Positions 8,856 to 25,768 of a stretch of DNA of 32,522 nucleotides are shown piece after piece. The DNA lies in the NCBI GenBank assembly GCA_902630555.1, contig CACOVB010000009.1, positions 1 to 32,522 on the forward strand. Reading direction: 5' to 3'. Below the pieces are notes generated by a model. The model searched no databases and was not told the origin of the DNA. It saw only the letters and a program-made list of their open reading frames with translations. The translations under genes were made by a program, and so were the position numbers. How positions within the stretch are numbered: position 1 is the first letter of the stretch; each line of letters opens with the position of its first letter. The stretch is from an uncultured SAR116 cluster alpha proteobacterium. GTDB taxonomy: Bacteria; Pseudomonadota; Alphaproteobacteria; Puniceispirillales; Marisalimonadaceae.

Positions 8856-10364
8856 ATGAATTTAAATTTATCAATACCTCAAAATATTGAAAATGTTCAA
8901 CCAAAAATTTCCGTGATTGGAGTTGGAGGCGCAGGATGCAATGCAGTTAACACAATGATTAACTCAAAAGTTAATAATATAAACTTCTTGGTAGCAAACA
9001 CAGATGGACAAGCATTATCGAGAAGCATGGCAAAGACACAAATACAACTTGGCAAAGAACTTACTAAAGGATTGGGAGCAGGTTCTGATTACACAATTGG
9101 AGAACAAGCTGCCAATGAAACTATAGATGAGATTATGATGGAGCTTGAGGATGTAAACATGCTTTTCATTGCAACGGGAATGGGAGGAGGAACAGGAACT
9201 GGCGCAGCACCGATTATTGCCCAAAAAGCAAAAGAAAAAGGTATTCTTACTATTGCAGTTGTTACAAAACCTTTTGATTTTGAAGGTAAAAAAAGAATGG
9301 AAACAGCATTAATTGGAATAGAAAAATTAGAGAATTCAGTTGATACATTAATTGTGATTCCAAATCAAAATCTTTTTCGAATAGCAAATGATAAAACAAC
9401 ATTTTCAGAAGCTTTCCAATTAGCTGATGATGTCCTCTACCAGGGAATTATAGGAATAACTGATTTGATAACTTCACCAGGAATGATAAATCTAGATTTC
9501 TCAGATATAAAAACCATTATGAAAAATAAAGGACAAGCCATGATGGGAACTGGAGAGCATTCAGGGGAAAATCGGGCTAAAATAGCAGCAGAAATGGCTC
9601 TAAACAATCCATTACTTGATAATTCTTCAATAGATGGAGCATCATCAATTTTGTTAAATATAAAAGGTGGTTTAGATTTAGCATTATTTGAAGTTGATGA
9701 AGCAGCCTCATTAATCAGAGCAAAAGTAAATGAAAATGCGAATATCATCTTTGGTTCGTCTATTGATGAAAGCCTTGATGGAATCATTAACGTTTCTGTA
9801 GTGGCTACAGGTATCAATATCAACCAATCAATTAAATCTGAGGTGTTAATTGATAGAAATATAAATCAAACTGAGGTAAGTGAAATTGATGATCATAGTT
9901 CAAAAATTGAAGGGCAAATAGATTTAGAAACAAAGATAGAAGATCTCAATAAAATCTCTAATTCAGAAAAAACTACAGCAGAACCTGAAAAAGATTCTTT
10001 GACATTTTTAGAAACTAAAGAAAAAGAATTATCAGATATTTTTAATAAAAAAAATGATGTTACAGAGAATATAACAGAAGAAAATCAATTCTTGAAAAAA
10101 ATTTCTAATTTATTTTCAAATAATAAAAATAAAAACATTTTAGAAAAGTTAGAACAAGATAATGAAGTTTATCCATTAAAAGATGTGGCTGAAAATGAGA
10201 AGAATGATGAAGAAAAGCCTCTTTTAAATCTTAACGAAACCCCAATTAAATCAGAAAATAAAAGCGAACAAATTAGCTTACTTGACATAGAAGAAAATGA
10301 GAAACGAGATAATTTAGATGATGTTCTAGAAATACCAGCTTTTTTAAGAAGGCAAGCCAATTGA
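8856..10364 (+). CDS. ftsZ: Cell division GTPase FtsZ, at an unusual locus
   Basis: A 502-residue tubulin homologue that polymerises into the Z ring and recruits the divisome. The tubulin signature GGGTGTG is at 110-116. The synergy loop NLDFSDIKTIM starts at 212, with Asp214 and Asp217 that complete the neighbour's GTP site. The conserved core ends near 325; an acidic, low-complexity linker follows to about 486, then the tail peptide LDDVLEIPAFLRRQAN, the docking site for FtsA and other partners. The length is normal for alphaproteobacteria. AAGGAG (8843-8848), 7 bases before the ATG, is the best ribosome site in the cluster and fits high expression. The odd point is location: between ftsL and ftsI, not after ftsA. 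Confidence 0.97.
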   Translation: MNLNLSIPQNIENVQPKISVIGVGGAGCNAVNTMINSKVNNINFLVANTDGQALSRSMAKTQIQLGKELTKGLGAGSDYTIGEQAANETIDEIMMELEDVNMLFIATGMGGGTGTGAAPIIAQKAKEKGILTIAVVTKPFDFEGKKRMETALIGIEKLENSVDTLIVIPNQNLFRIANDKTTFSEAFQLADDVLYQGIIGITDLITSPGMINLDFSDIKTIMKNKGQAMMGTGEHSGENRAKIAAEMALNNPLLDNSSIDGASSILLNIKGGLDLALFEVDEAASLIRAKVNENANIIFGSSIDESLDGIINVSVVATGININQSIKSEVLIDRNINQTEVSEIDDHSSKIEGQIDLETKIEDLNKISNSEKTTAEPEKDSLTFLETKEKELSDIFNKKNDVTENITEENQFLKKISNLFSNNKNKNILEKLEQDNEVYPLKDVAENEKNDEEKPLLNLNETPIKSENKSEQISLLDIEENEKRDNLDDVLEIPAFLRRQAN

Positions 10365-20952: not shown

Positions 20953-21825
20953 ATGATTAGTACAACCTTATTAGTTGAGAATAAAAAAATGAGCAACTTA
21001 ACATGGTTCGGTGTTGGCGGATGCTCTAAATATTATTTGCAACCTTCATCTGAAGAGAATTTAGTTTCTTTTTTAAAAGATAATCAATTAGATCTACCAA
21101 TATATCCTTTAGGAGCAGGGTCTAATATAATCATAAGAGACCTAGGTTTTAATGGAATAATTATTCACTTTAATAAATTGAAAGAAATTTTTATTGATAA
21201 ACAAGGAATTATAACAGCCTATTGTGGTGCCATGGATGCTGATGTTGCTAGGTTTGCAAGAAATCATTCAAAAACTGGACTGGAATTCTTAATTGGCATA
21301 CCTGGAACTATTGGTGGTGGCATAAAAATGAATTCAGGCGCATACGGATCTGAGATTAAAAATATTTTAATTGATGTTACTGCAATAAATAAAAATGGAA
21401 TTTTAAAAAGTTTCACAGTTAAAGATCTTCAACTAGATTACAGAACAAATAAATTAAGTCATGAATGGATGTTTTTAAAAGCAAGATTTAAGTCAAGTAA
21501 TGGCTCCAAAGAACAAATTCAAAAAAAGATGAAAGAAATAATTCAATCTAGAAAAATGAGCCAGCCAACTGGACAAAAAACTGGTGGAAGTACATTTATG
21601 AATGGAAAGAATTTTAAAGCGTGGGAACTTATAGATAATTCTGGCTGTAGAGGATTAAAAAATGGTGGAGCTGTCATTTCCAATAAGCACTGTAATTTTA
21701 TAATTAATGAAAATAATGCTACAGCAACTGATATTGAAACACTTGGAGAAATTGTAAGAAAAAAAGTGTTTGAAAAAACAGGAAAAAAACTTAAATGGGA
21801 AATTAAGATTGTTGGTGAAAAATGA
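20953..21825 (+). CDS. murB: UDP-N-acetylenolpyruvoylglucosamine reductase MurB
   Basis: A 290-residue FAD enzyme that reduces UDP-GlcNAc-enolpyruvate to UDP-MurNAc with NADPH. NLTWFGVGG near the start, GAGSNIIIRD (55-63) and the FAD loop IGIPGTIGGGIKMNSGAYG (114-132) are clear. Tyr163-Arg164 lies in LDYRTNKL. The proton donor is Ser213 in GGSTFMNG; most relatives I recall have GSTFKNP there, so Lys and Pro are replaced by Met and Gly. The C-terminal LKWEIKIVG carries the expected catalytic Glu. The stop overlaps the ddl ATG. Confidence 0.95.
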   Translation: MISTTLLVENKKMSNLTWFGVGGCSKYYLQPSSEENLVSFLKDNQLDLPIYPLGAGSNIIIRDLGFNGIIIHFNKLKEIFIDKQGIITAYCGAMDADVARFARNHSKTGLEFLIGIPGTIGGGIKMNSGAYGSEIKNILIDVTAINKNGILKSFTVKDLQLDYRTNKLSHEWMFLKARFKSSNGSKEQIQKKMKEIIQSRKMSQPTGQKTGGSTFMNGKNFKAWELIDNSGCRGLKNGGAVISNKHCNFIINENNATATDIETLGEIVRKKVFEKTGKKLKWEIKIVGEK

Positions 21826-22745
21826 AAAGTAAAAAAATACATGTTGCTTTTTTGATGGGAGGTTTAAGTTCTGAAAGAGAAGTTTCATTAAATTCAGGAA
21901 ATGCTTGTTATGATGCAATTGATAATGAAAAATATTATGCTACTAAAATCATTGTTGATAAAAACTTTTATGATCAAATTTTAACTGTTAAACCTGATAT
22001 TTGTTTCAATGCTTTACATGGTTCATTTGGTGAAGATGGAACAATTCAATCTTTTTTAAATAAAATTGAAATGCCATATACACATTCAGGAGCAAATGCA
22101 TCTACAATAGCAATGAATAAGTTATTAACAAAAAACTATTTAAGTCAATTTTCTGTAAATACAGCAGAGAAAATTATTTTCCCAAAAACATATGATTTTA
22201 AATCACTTCATGAATATAAAAAATTTTTGCCATTAGTTTTAAAACCAATAAGTGGCGGTAGTTCCGTTGAAATAAATATATTAAATAATGAAAATGATTT
22301 AAATTATTTTAAAGATAAATTATTTAGTAATCAATTTATAATAGAACCTTTAGTTGGTAATAGAGAATTGACTGTATCTGTTTTAGAAAATAAACCATTA
22401 GTCGTCACAGAAATTATTTCAAAAAAAAATTTGTTTTACGATTATAATTCAAAATACAACCCTAATGGATCTTTACATATACTGCCTGCAAAAATACCTA
22501 ATAATATTTACAATAAAGTTATTAAATGGGCTAAACTTGCTCATAAACTTTTAGGTTGTTCTGGAATTTCAAGAAGCGATTTTAGATATGATGATCGTAA
22601 TGGTACAATATATATGCTTGAAATAAATACTCAACCAGGAATGACTAAAACTTCATTATCCCCTGAACAAGCTAAATATTGCGGAATAAGTCTAACTGAA
22701 CTTGTTGATAAGTTAATTTCAAAAGCAAAATTTGAGAAGGTTTAG
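21822..22745 (+). CDS. ddl: D-alanine--D-alanine ligase
   Basis: A 307-residue ATP-grasp enzyme of the DdlB type that makes the D-Ala-D-Ala dipeptide used by MurF. MGGLSSEREVSLNSG (about 10-24), NALHGSFGEDGTIQ, SGANAST, LKPISGGSSVEI (ATP loop) and the C-terminal EINTQPGMTKTSL with metal-binding Glu and Asn are typical. The gene overlaps the murB stop by 4 bases (ATGA). Its last 14 bases overlap ftsQ if the latter starts at its TTG. Confidence 0.95.
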   Translation: MKSKKIHVAFLMGGLSSEREVSLNSGNACYDAIDNEKYYATKIIVDKNFYDQILTVKPDICFNALHGSFGEDGTIQSFLNKIEMPYTHSGANASTIAMNKLLTKNYLSQFSVNTAEKIIFPKTYDFKSLHEYKKFLPLVLKPISGGSSVEINILNNENDLNYFKDKLFSNQFIIEPLVGNRELTVSVLENKPLVVTEIISKKNLFYDYNSKYNPNGSLHILPAKIPNNIYNKVIKWAKLAHKLLGCSGISRSDFRYDDRNGTIYMLEINTQPGMTKTSLSPEQAKYCGISLTELVDKLISKAKFEKV

Positions 22746-23505
22746 TAAAATTAAAAAGTTTATTCATTTTTTTAATATAAAAAATTTAATTATAATTTTG
22801 TTAACACTTTCAACTCTATCAATTACATTCTTTTCTTATTTCAAATATAAAGATTTAATTGCAGAGAAACTCGAATTAAATAAGGAAAGACTTTTATTTA
22901 GGTTTAGTAATGATGCTACACCAAATTTGATTGTGTTAGGAAATAATTATATCGATAAAAAGTCTTTAGTTTATGAATTAAAAACAAAATTAGATGAAGA
23001 TATCAATTCTAACAACCTCAGCATCATCTCAGATGTGTTAAACAAGAAAAATTTAATAAAAAAGTTTATTATAACTAAAACATCTAATGATTTGATAACA
23101 ATCAAAATAGAAGAAAAAAATATAATTGGTTTACTAAATATTGAAAATAATAATTATCTTATAGATGAGTTTAATAATATAATAGAGACAAAAATAACTC
23201 CAAACTTATTTCATTTACCTGTTTTTATTGGAAAAAACTCTAATAAAAATGCTAGTGTTATATTAGATTTAATAAAAGAAAGTAATATAAATCTAAATTA
23301 TTTATCTTTTTCTTTTGTTAATCAAAGAAGATGGAATATTAATCTGAAAAATGGAGTAAAAATTTTGTTACCTGAAACCAAAGTATTAGATACACTTAAA
23401 TTACTAAACAGAGTTGCTTCAAAATATAATATCTTAAATGGTAATTTTATTGAAATAGATATGAGGATTTATGGCAAATATTTTCTTAAACCAAAAATAA
23501 ATTAA
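22732..23505 (+). CDS. ftsQ: Cell division protein FtsQ
   Basis: Called from position between ddl and ftsA and from topology. A short basic cytoplasmic end precedes one membrane helix (about 19-37). A periplasmic POTRA-like region follows (NLIVLGNNYIDKKSLVYELKTK and after), then a beta-rich FtsQ domain with KNGVKILLPE near the end. FtsQ bridges FtsL/FtsB to the divisome. The only ordinary start in frame is TTG at 22732, inside ddl and with no ribosome site. An ATT at 22750 stands 9 bases after AGAAGG (22735-22740) and just past the ddl stop; it would give a protein shorter by 6 residues. Start unresolved. Confidence 0.85.
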   Translation: MRRFSKIKKFIHFFNIKNLIIILLTLSTLSITFFSYFKYKDLIAEKLELNKERLLFRFSNDATPNLIVLGNNYIDKKSLVYELKTKLDEDINSNNLSIISDVLNKKNLIKKFIITKTSNDLITIKIEEKNIIGLLNIENNNYLIDEFNNIIETKITPNLFHLPVFIGKNSNKNASVILDLIKESNINLNYLSFSFVNQRRWNINLKNGVKILLPETKVLDTLKLLNRVASKYNILNGNFIEIDMRIYGKYFLKPKIN

Positions 23506-23515
23506 AGGTGAAATA

Positions 23516-24733
23516 ATTAATTATAATAAAAGTAAAATTCATGTTGGCTTAGATATAGGTAATAGTAAAATTGCATGCTTGATTGGTCAATCTGTAGATA
23601 ACAACAATATTCAAATCAAAGTATTAGGATTTGGACAGCACATTTCTATGGGCTTAAACAAAGGAGAAGTAATAGATTTACATAAATTGTCCAATGCTAT
23701 TTCTAAAGCTGTTCAAAAGGCCGAAGAAATGGCAGGATTTAGAATTTCAAATATCACATGCAATATAACTGGAGGATTACCATTTACTAAAATTACGTCT
23801 GATAAGATAAAAATTACTAATAATTTAATAAAAAAAGAAGATATATTATACCTTTTAAACTTAGATAAATACAAATCCAAATATGAAAATTATATTCAAA
23901 TTAGAAGAAAACCCAAGGCTTTTAAAATTGATAATGATAAAGAAGTTGATAATCCGATTGGACTTGAAAGTGAAACTCTAACTTTAGAGGCAATCAACAC
24001 CTATGTTAATAAAAATGTTATTTTAAATTTAAATAAATCAATTGAATTATGTCATTTAACAGTAAATCAATTTTATATAACACCGGAAATAAATGGAATA
24101 TCTACGATGATTAAAGAAGAAAGAGATCTTGGTACTATTATCATTGATATAGGTGCAAGCTTAACTTCTATCGGCATTTATTTGAAAGATAGTTTAATTT
24201 ATTCTAGCTTTATTAAAATAGGTGGAATTCATATAACGAGTGACCTTGTAAAAGGACTAGGCACTGAATCAGAAGAGGCTGAAAAACTTAAAATTTTACA
24301 TGGATCAACAGAAGTTAATCGATTAGATGATTTTAAAAACATTGATGTTAATATAATTAATGAGCAAGGTGAGCATACTTCACATAATTTTTCTAAATCT
24401 ATGTTAATTGGAATTATTAAGCCTAGAGTTGAAGAAATTTTTGAATTAGTAATTCAAAATTTAAAAAATTCTTATCCAGAATATTCAAAAATTTCAAAGG
24501 TAATTATTACAGGCGGAACGTCTAATCTTTATGGAATAAGTAATATTGCAAAATCTTATTTTAAATGTAACATAAGAATTGGAAAACCTATTGGACTGTT
24601 AAATGCACCTGACTTACTTCAATCGCCAAGCTTTAGTTGCTTAACCGGTTTAGTATTGAAAAGTTCCAGAGAACAAAATAATAACGGAATATATAGTTTT
24701 TTAAAAAAAATAAAAGAATATTTTTTTAATTAA
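23516..24733 (+). CDS. ftsA: Cell division protein FtsA, probable ATT start
   Basis: About 405 residues of an actin-like ATPase that anchors FtsZ to the membrane. With the ATT start, the phosphate-1 motif VGLDIGNSK follows nine residues later, as in E. coli FtsA. The 1C insert lies in the first third; IIDIGASLTS is phosphate-2 and VIITGGTSNLYGI the adenosine motif. The C-terminal FLKKIKEYFF is the amphipathic membrane helix. In frame, TAA closes the reading at 23498-23500, and no ATG, GTG or TTG occurs until TTG at 23579, which would delete phosphate-1. AAAGGTG (23504-23510), 5 bases before the ATT at 23516, supports that codon. ftsZ does not follow; lpxC does. Confidence 0.9.
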   Translation: MNYNKSKIHVGLDIGNSKIACLIGQSVDNNNIQIKVLGFGQHISMGLNKGEVIDLHKLSNAISKAVQKAEEMAGFRISNITCNITGGLPFTKITSDKIKITNNLIKKEDILYLLNLDKYKSKYENYIQIRRKPKAFKIDNDKEVDNPIGLESETLTLEAINTYVNKNVILNLNKSIELCHLTVNQFYITPEINGISTMIKEERDLGTIIIDIGASLTSIGIYLKDSLIYSSFIKIGGIHITSDLVKGLGTESEEAEKLKILHGSTEVNRLDDFKNIDVNIINEQGEHTSHNFSKSMLIGIIKPRVEEIFELVIQNLKNSYPEYSKISKVIITGGTSNLYGISNIAKSYFKCNIRIGKPIGLLNAPDLLQSPSFSCLTGLVLKSSREQNNNGIYSFLKKIKEYFFN

Positions 24734-24817: not shown

Positions 24818-25768
24818 ATGAATATAATAAATTCACAAATTTTAAATAATAACTCATACCAAAAGACTATACGTTCACCTATTTCTTTTAGTGGTGTTGG
24901 AATTCATAGTGGTAAAGCTGTAAATATGACACTTTATCCTGCTAATGAAGATTATGGTATTGTATTTAAAAGAACAGATCTAGATTTAAACAACTATATC
25001 AAAGTAATGCCGGAAAATATCGATTTTTCAAAATATTGTTCCAAGTTAAAAAATAAAAATGGAATTTGTGTTAGTACAGTAGAGCATCTTCTCGCCTCAC
25101 TTCATGCATTTGATATAAATAATTTACTAATTGAAATTAATTCAAGTGAATTACCAGCTATGGATGGAAGTTCTTATGAGTTTACGAAAAAACTTGTGCA
25201 GATTGGTTTACAAAATCAAAAAAAATCAAAAAAAGTTTTAAAAATTCTTAGAAAAGTAAGCATTAAAGATGGTAGTAGATCAATAAGAATTTTGCCATCA
25301 ACTCACTTATCATTTTCGATAAAAATAAACTTTTCAAATAATTTAATTGGTAAAGATGAATATATCTATACTCATAATACACAAAATTTTATTGAAGATA
25401 TTTGTTACGCTAGAACCTTCTGCCTTTCAAAAGATATTGGAAAATTAAGAGCTAGTGGTTTTGGATTAGGTGGTAATTTGAATAATGCGATTGTTGTAAA
25501 AGACAATCAAATATTGAATGATACTGGACTTAGGTGTAACAGGGAATTTGTAAAACATAAACTTTTAGATTGTGTTGGTGATTTTTATATGTCTGGCTTA
25601 CCAATTTTAGGAAGCATTCATGCGATACAATCAGGTCATGAATTGAATAATAGATTAATTAAAAAGATTTTTCAAAATAAAAACAATTATGAAATTATAG
25701 AACTTAATCCATATAACATACCAATTTCTCATCCAGAAAATACTCTAAATAATATTAATGTTGCTTAA
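24818..25768 (+). CDS. lpxC: UDP-3-O-acyl-GlcNAc deacetylase LpxC
   Basis: A 316-residue zinc enzyme that catalyses the first committed step of lipid A synthesis, so the cell should have a lipopolysaccharide outer membrane. ISFSGVGIHSGKAV (22-35) opens domain I. STVEHLLASL holds the catalytic Glu89 and zinc ligand His90; KHKLLDCVGD holds zinc ligands His247 and Asp251; His274 in SGHELNN is the second catalytic residue. ELPAMDGSS and ARTFCL are also conserved. A GGAAG ribosome site stands before the ATG. Confidence 0.96.
   Translation: MNIINSQILNNNSYQKTIRSPISFSGVGIHSGKAVNMTLYPANEDYGIVFKRTDLDLNNYIKVMPENIDFSKYCSKLKNKNGICVSTVEHLLASLHAFDINNLLIEINSSELPAMDGSSYEFTKKLVQIGLQNQKKSKKVLKILRKVSIKDGSRSIRILPSTHLSFSIKINFSNNLIGKDEYIYTHNTQNFIEDICYARTFCLSKDIGKLRASGFGLGGNLNNAIVVKDNQILNDTGLRCNREFVKHKLLDCVGDFYMSGLPILGSIHAIQSGHELNNRLIKKIFQNKNNYEIIELNPYNIPISHPENTLNNINVA

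Follow-up and report, generated by a model that had tools for sequence, protein, structure and literature searches.

Sequence evidence for a conserved ATT start codon in ftsA, and probably in ftsQ, of a SAR116 genus

Where does translation of ftsA begin in a genus of the SAR116 cluster whose gene shows none of the usual start codons before its first conserved motif? We addressed this question in a stretch of 32,522 nucleotides (the window), a contig of a SAR116 cluster draft genome (976,564 bases in 64 contigs; 57% complete). The window carries a dcw cluster in the order mraZ-rsmH-ftsL-ftsZ-ftsI-murE-murF-mraY-murD-ftsW-murG-murC-murB-ddlB-ftsQ-ftsA-lpxC; part of these genes were identified by profile searches, and the others are named from their sequences. 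FtsA was identified by a match to TIGR01174 (274.6 bits; cutoff, 175.85), and its gene is present as a single copy in its own genome. As a preliminary description of this DNA had stated, the TAA at 23498 to 23500 in the ftsA frame is followed by 26 sense codons with no ATG, GTG, or TTG up to the TTG at 23579. The ATP-binding motif VGLDIGNSK is encoded upstream of that TTG and can belong to the protein only when initiation occurs 5' of 23579. An open reading frame call limited to ATG, GTG, and TTG starts ftsA at this TTG and yields 384 amino acids, the truncation that had been foreseen. The description had instead proposed an ATT start preceded by AAAGGTG at 23504 to 23510, and both elements are present as described (Table 1).

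Table 1. Positions of the features discussed, in window coordinates
Feature	Position	Strand	Remarks
ftsZ	8856..10364	+	Relocated, between ftsL and ftsI; TIGR00065
Shine-Dalgarno site of ftsQ (GAGAAGG)	22734..22740	+	9 nt before ATT 22750
ftsQ	22750..23505	+	Proposed start ATT 22750-22752, replacing the called TTG 22732
ftsQ stop codon (TAA)	23503..23505	+	Overlaps the ftsA Shine-Dalgarno site
Shine-Dalgarno site of ftsA (AAAGGTGA)	23504..23511	+	Pairs with 16S tail CACCTCCTTT; duplex of -8.5 kcal/mol in the window
ftsA	23516..24733	+	405 codons counted from the proposed ATT; stop at 24731-24733
Proposed ATT start codon of ftsA	23516..23518	+	Invariant in 9/9 genomes of the genus
TTG taken as ftsA start by the automatic caller	23579..23581	+	Internal to the gene; TTA in G004; preceding codons change only synonymously
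lpxC	24818..25768	+	Now directly 3' of ftsA

A search of 13 genomes of the genus (g1) recovered the 5' end of ftsA in 9. The codon that these relatives use at the aligned position (ATT, ATG, or GTG), the comparison suggested in the preliminary description, was ATT in all nine, in agreement with the proposed start. In each, GGT lies nine bases upstream of the ATT, and the frame contains no ATG, GTG, or TTG from the preceding stop codon to the motif. This uniformity spans protein identities to the window down to 72% and divergence at fourfold sites within the genus of up to 0.55. Eight of the nine genomes were also retrieved under public names, which cover multiple isolates and two or more naming schemes, and show the same ATT. 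Because the frame and the ATT are shared by all nine, a sequencing error is excluded. The caller's choice of TTG 23579 and the draft state of the window's genome might suggest an assembly error at the 5' end or a true start at that TTG; we give this reading practically no credence, given the agreement of nine genomes, the replacement of the TTG in one of them, the loss of the ATP motif that a start there would entail, and the purifying selection acting on the codons before it.

That selection is visible in the eight full-length genes. Pairwise comparisons, in which the pairs are not independent, yielded 76 synonymous and 0 nonsynonymous differences over codons 10 to 21, compared with 20 synonymous and 78 nonsynonymous differences over codons 2 to 9. 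Since codons 10 to 21 differ only synonymously, the pattern argues for translation of the codons that precede TTG 23579. Codon 1 is invariably ATT, while each of codons 2 to 7 varies. Conservation of the ATT is nevertheless modest evidence when taken alone, because 6 of the 31 columns that are isoleucine throughout, including codon 1 and codon 8, are ATT in all eight genomes; it is the lack of an alternative start that carries the case.

Two further noncanonical codons in the same frame, ATA 23513 and ATT 23537 (codon 8), were weighed as starts. The preliminary description had held that ATT 23516 gives the same distance to the motif as in Escherichia coli FtsA. The distance is in fact one residue short: in E. 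coli FtsA, 11 residues precede the G of GLEIG, whereas the ATT start leaves 10. ATA 23513 would give exactly the E. coli length, but the codon preceding the ATT is ATA in only seven of the nine genomes, being GTA in G004 and TCA in G001. ATT 23537 is likewise invariant, but its Shine-Dalgarno pairing is almost nil (-0.6), and the ftsA start of the sister genera lies 5' of it. A start at either codon is thus very unlikely. Out-of-frame starts combined with a shift were rejected as candidates, being either not conserved or soon stopped; GTG 23508, for example, is absent in G009, G007, and G004. We therefore hold with high confidence that ATT 23516 is the real and conserved start of ftsA in this genus, and the only sensible one.

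The signals for the ribosome around the junction with ftsQ are unremarkable. The 16S rRNA tail in two genomes of the genus reads GGATCACCTCCTTTCT. Pairing of the ftsA leader with 16S rRNA reaches -8.5 kcal/mol in five genomes and -12.1 in G001 and is weak (-4.0) in G009, G007, and G004; in the window, the duplex is among the strongest within the cluster. The distance from the ftsQ stop to the ftsA ATT is 13 nt in seven genomes, 14 nt in G010, and 32 nt in G001, and the two genes are likely to be translationally coupled. Their proximity in the window might also suggest that FtsQ and FtsA are made as a fusion, with ribosomes shifting frame at the ftsQ stop or reading through it. However, the C terminus of FtsQ is periplasmic and FtsA is cytoplasmic, and the relative frame varies among relatives (ftsQ stop at -13, -14, or -32). 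Because this spacing leaves no constant frame relationship between the genes, a frameshift fusion is excluded, and the fusion idea as a whole is extremely improbable.

A search for an unusual initiator tRNA turned up an initiator tRNA-Met in two genomes, G001 and G012, and in both it has the ordinary CAU anticodon. In sampled stretches of G003 and G010, ARAGORN detected one tRNA-Met, judged by its sequence to be an elongator, and no initiator. Separately, at seven loci (L297 to L301, L303, and L304), only the 3' half of an initiator-type tRNA-Met is present, and ARAGORN does not count these copies as tRNAs. The surroundings of this half are identical in three species (L297, L300, and L301); such copies are possibly integration scars or part of a conserved element.

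Beyond the genus, the picture is different. A search of the order found ftsA in 103 of 136 genomes, and 62 of the remaining 94 outside the genus were read. All 61 readable starts were canonical (60 ATG and 1 TTG, the latter in G015 of the sister genus g2); G103, for which no motif was obtained, was left out of this count. On this coverage, the ATT of ftsA is restricted to the genus.

The upstream gene, which the preliminary description had overlooked in this respect, probably changed in the same way. An ATT lies at the position of 22750 in all eight genomes of the genus that hold this end of ftsQ, nine bases after AGG (GGG in G003), and the predicted Shine-Dalgarno duplex is -5.8 for this codon versus -0.3 for the called TTG 22732. 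That TTG lies 5' of the Shine-Dalgarno site. G012 has TCG in its place, and in G010 an in-frame TAA separates it from the rest of the gene, whose earliest canonical codon there falls inside a hydrophobic stretch taken for a membrane segment; a usable canonical start is thus absent in both genomes. In sister genera, ftsQ starts with ATG in all 18 readable cases (of 22 loci). These observations make ATT 22750 the probable start of ftsQ, which is less certain than that of ftsA because six of the eight genomes keep the upstream TTG. We propose that both genes, starting with ATG in g3 and g4, switched to ATT in the ancestor of the genus. As a separate observation, the start of the neighboring ddlB (window position 21822) is ATG, TTG, or GTG depending on the species within the genus, in contrast to the fixed ATT of ftsA.

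The genes of this cluster are the same as in other bacteria, and their order is mostly alike. Elsewhere, however, ftsQ-ftsA-ftsZ are contiguous, whereas here ftsZ lies between ftsL and ftsI, and lpxC follows ftsA. The order ftsL-ftsZ-ftsI was found in all 10 genomes of the genus that hold ftsZ. In the sister genus g2, rsmH-ftsL-ftsZ occurs in G014, and lpxC follows ftsA in G014 and G015. By match coordinates, all 29 genomes of g3 and g4 with both genes have ftsZ no more than about 130 nt downstream of the ftsA match. Since g2 has the moved ftsZ and yet ATG or TTG in ftsA, the move dates to the ancestor of g1 and g2, with the ATT starts arising later, in g1; relocation alone therefore does not require an ATT. 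This bears on the earlier suggestion that the ATT holds FtsA low relative to FtsZ, now made from elsewhere in the operon. The separate location of ftsZ was confirmed, but a simple link between it and the ATT did not survive the comparison with g2, in which the start is canonical despite the older move, and the low level of FtsA is something that we infer.

How widespread such starts are was examined in a screen of 720 kb of G003 against 741 kb of G010, which left 237 ortholog pairs after removal of antisense shadows. Four entries had at least 26 aligned codons before any canonical start, two of which were judged to be antisense shadows by composition alone. Only ftsA and a peptidase M23 gene clearly lacked a canonical start, with a long conserved coding-like stretch before any such codon; such starts are therefore rare in the genus. 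A gene that has a canonical codon further 5' escapes this screen, as ftsQ did, and more starts of this kind may therefore exist. The M23 gene (PF01551; L282 to L291, e.g., L109:4210-5559 on the minus strand) has no ATG, GTG, or TTG among its first 20 codons, and in all 10 genomes of the genus that hold it, a CTG follows GGAG. A later leucine codon, which serves as an internal control, varies, unlike the start CTG.

The gene for initiation factor IF3 itself, infC, also has an unusual 5' end (loci L078 to L088 and L259 to L281). An ATA lies 8 nt after GGAG in all 11 loci of the genus, and all 23 sister loci have ATA at the corresponding position, although one of these 23, L260, breaks off ahead of the site. 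In some infC loci, a TTG precedes the Shine-Dalgarno site, and the window's own draft genome is without infC. The gene most likely starts with ATA throughout this SAR116 family, which fits standard IF3 feedback and the known use of noncanonical starts in infC.

These elements can be assembled into a mechanism. The fMet-tRNA (CAU) would initiate at ATT 23516 of ftsA by third-base mispairing, assisted by the Shine-Dalgarno site AAAGGTGA and by ribosomes arriving from the end of ftsQ, 13 nt before it, and ftsQ would be initiated likewise at ATT 22750. IF3 would discriminate against both ATT starts, so that the output of FtsA and FtsQ would be low and would vary with the amount of IF3 relative to ribosomes, while ftsZ keeps its ATG and a good Shine-Dalgarno site. 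As a whole, an ATT-started ftsA, a probably ATT-started ftsQ, and a presumed IF3-sensitive low output appear to be the best explanation, which we hold with considerable confidence. That low-level or IF3-controlled expression is the selected function of these starts has a little less than an even chance, in our judgment.

The main rival grants that ATT is the true start of ftsA but gives it no regulatory role; the codon would have drifted in and been tolerated through coupling to ftsQ and the Shine-Dalgarno site. The ftsQ stop 13 nt before the ATT in seven of the nine genomes, the very A+T-rich surroundings, and the weak Shine-Dalgarno site in three genomes are all consistent with such drift. 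On the other hand, ATG is a single substitution away, yet ATT has been kept throughout the genus over the full range of fourfold-site divergence; ftsQ apparently switched too; and in G001, the end of ftsQ is 32 nt away. Switches from AUG to AUU are moreover very rare, with 1 of 61,358 ancestral AUG codons reported in PMC5622118. We regard drift as a serious possibility but a doubtful one.

Known systems offer partial parallels to the proposed IF3-sensitive reading. E. coli infC has an ATT start, as ftsA does here, with IF3 feedback; it encodes IF3 itself, and its SAR116 family counterpart most likely starts with ATA. For E. coli pcnB, Binns and Masters reportedly found that the ATT start limits translation. 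That gene resembles ftsA in having an ATT outside infC but encodes poly(A) polymerase and is not a division gene. According to PMC9410913, E. coli has no AUU genes other than infC and pcnB. IF3 disfavors initiation at noncanonical codons and thereby regulates infC and sigR, as described in PMC5472188. According to the same paper, the GTC start of Streptomyces sigR is repressed by IF3 and sets the SigR:RsrA stoichiometry. We regard sigR as the closest precedent for the ATT of ftsA. The two share a noncanonical start conserved in one genus, an upstream Shine-Dalgarno site, a stoichiometric operon partner, and omission by gene callers, but they differ in that sigR has a GTC, encodes a stress sigma factor, and has a measured IF3 effect, whereas ftsA has an ATT, encodes a division protein, and has an inferred one.

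IF3-sensitive valves at noncanonical starts are known for very few genes. Among open-licence papers in PMC, none was found that reports ATT-type starts in ftsA, ftsQ, or other division genes, and within that literature, a conserved ATT in ftsA, and probably ftsQ, would have no earlier counterpart in the division machinery. In practical terms, callers limited to ATG, GTG, and TTG remove 21 residues and the ATP motif from FtsA in this genus. A broader notion, which we consider unlikely, is that the genus ties division to its translation machinery: IF3, itself the product of a gene with an ATA start, would disfavor the starts of FtsQ and FtsA (ATT) and of the peptidoglycan M23 hydrolase (CTG). 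If this were true, several division and wall proteins, not including FtsZ, would rise and fall with the ratio of IF3 to ribosomes, and division would wait on growth. The ATT starts suggest that the genus throttles part of its division machinery at translation start, and those of ftsA and ftsQ would allow a direct test of the link between translation initiation and division.
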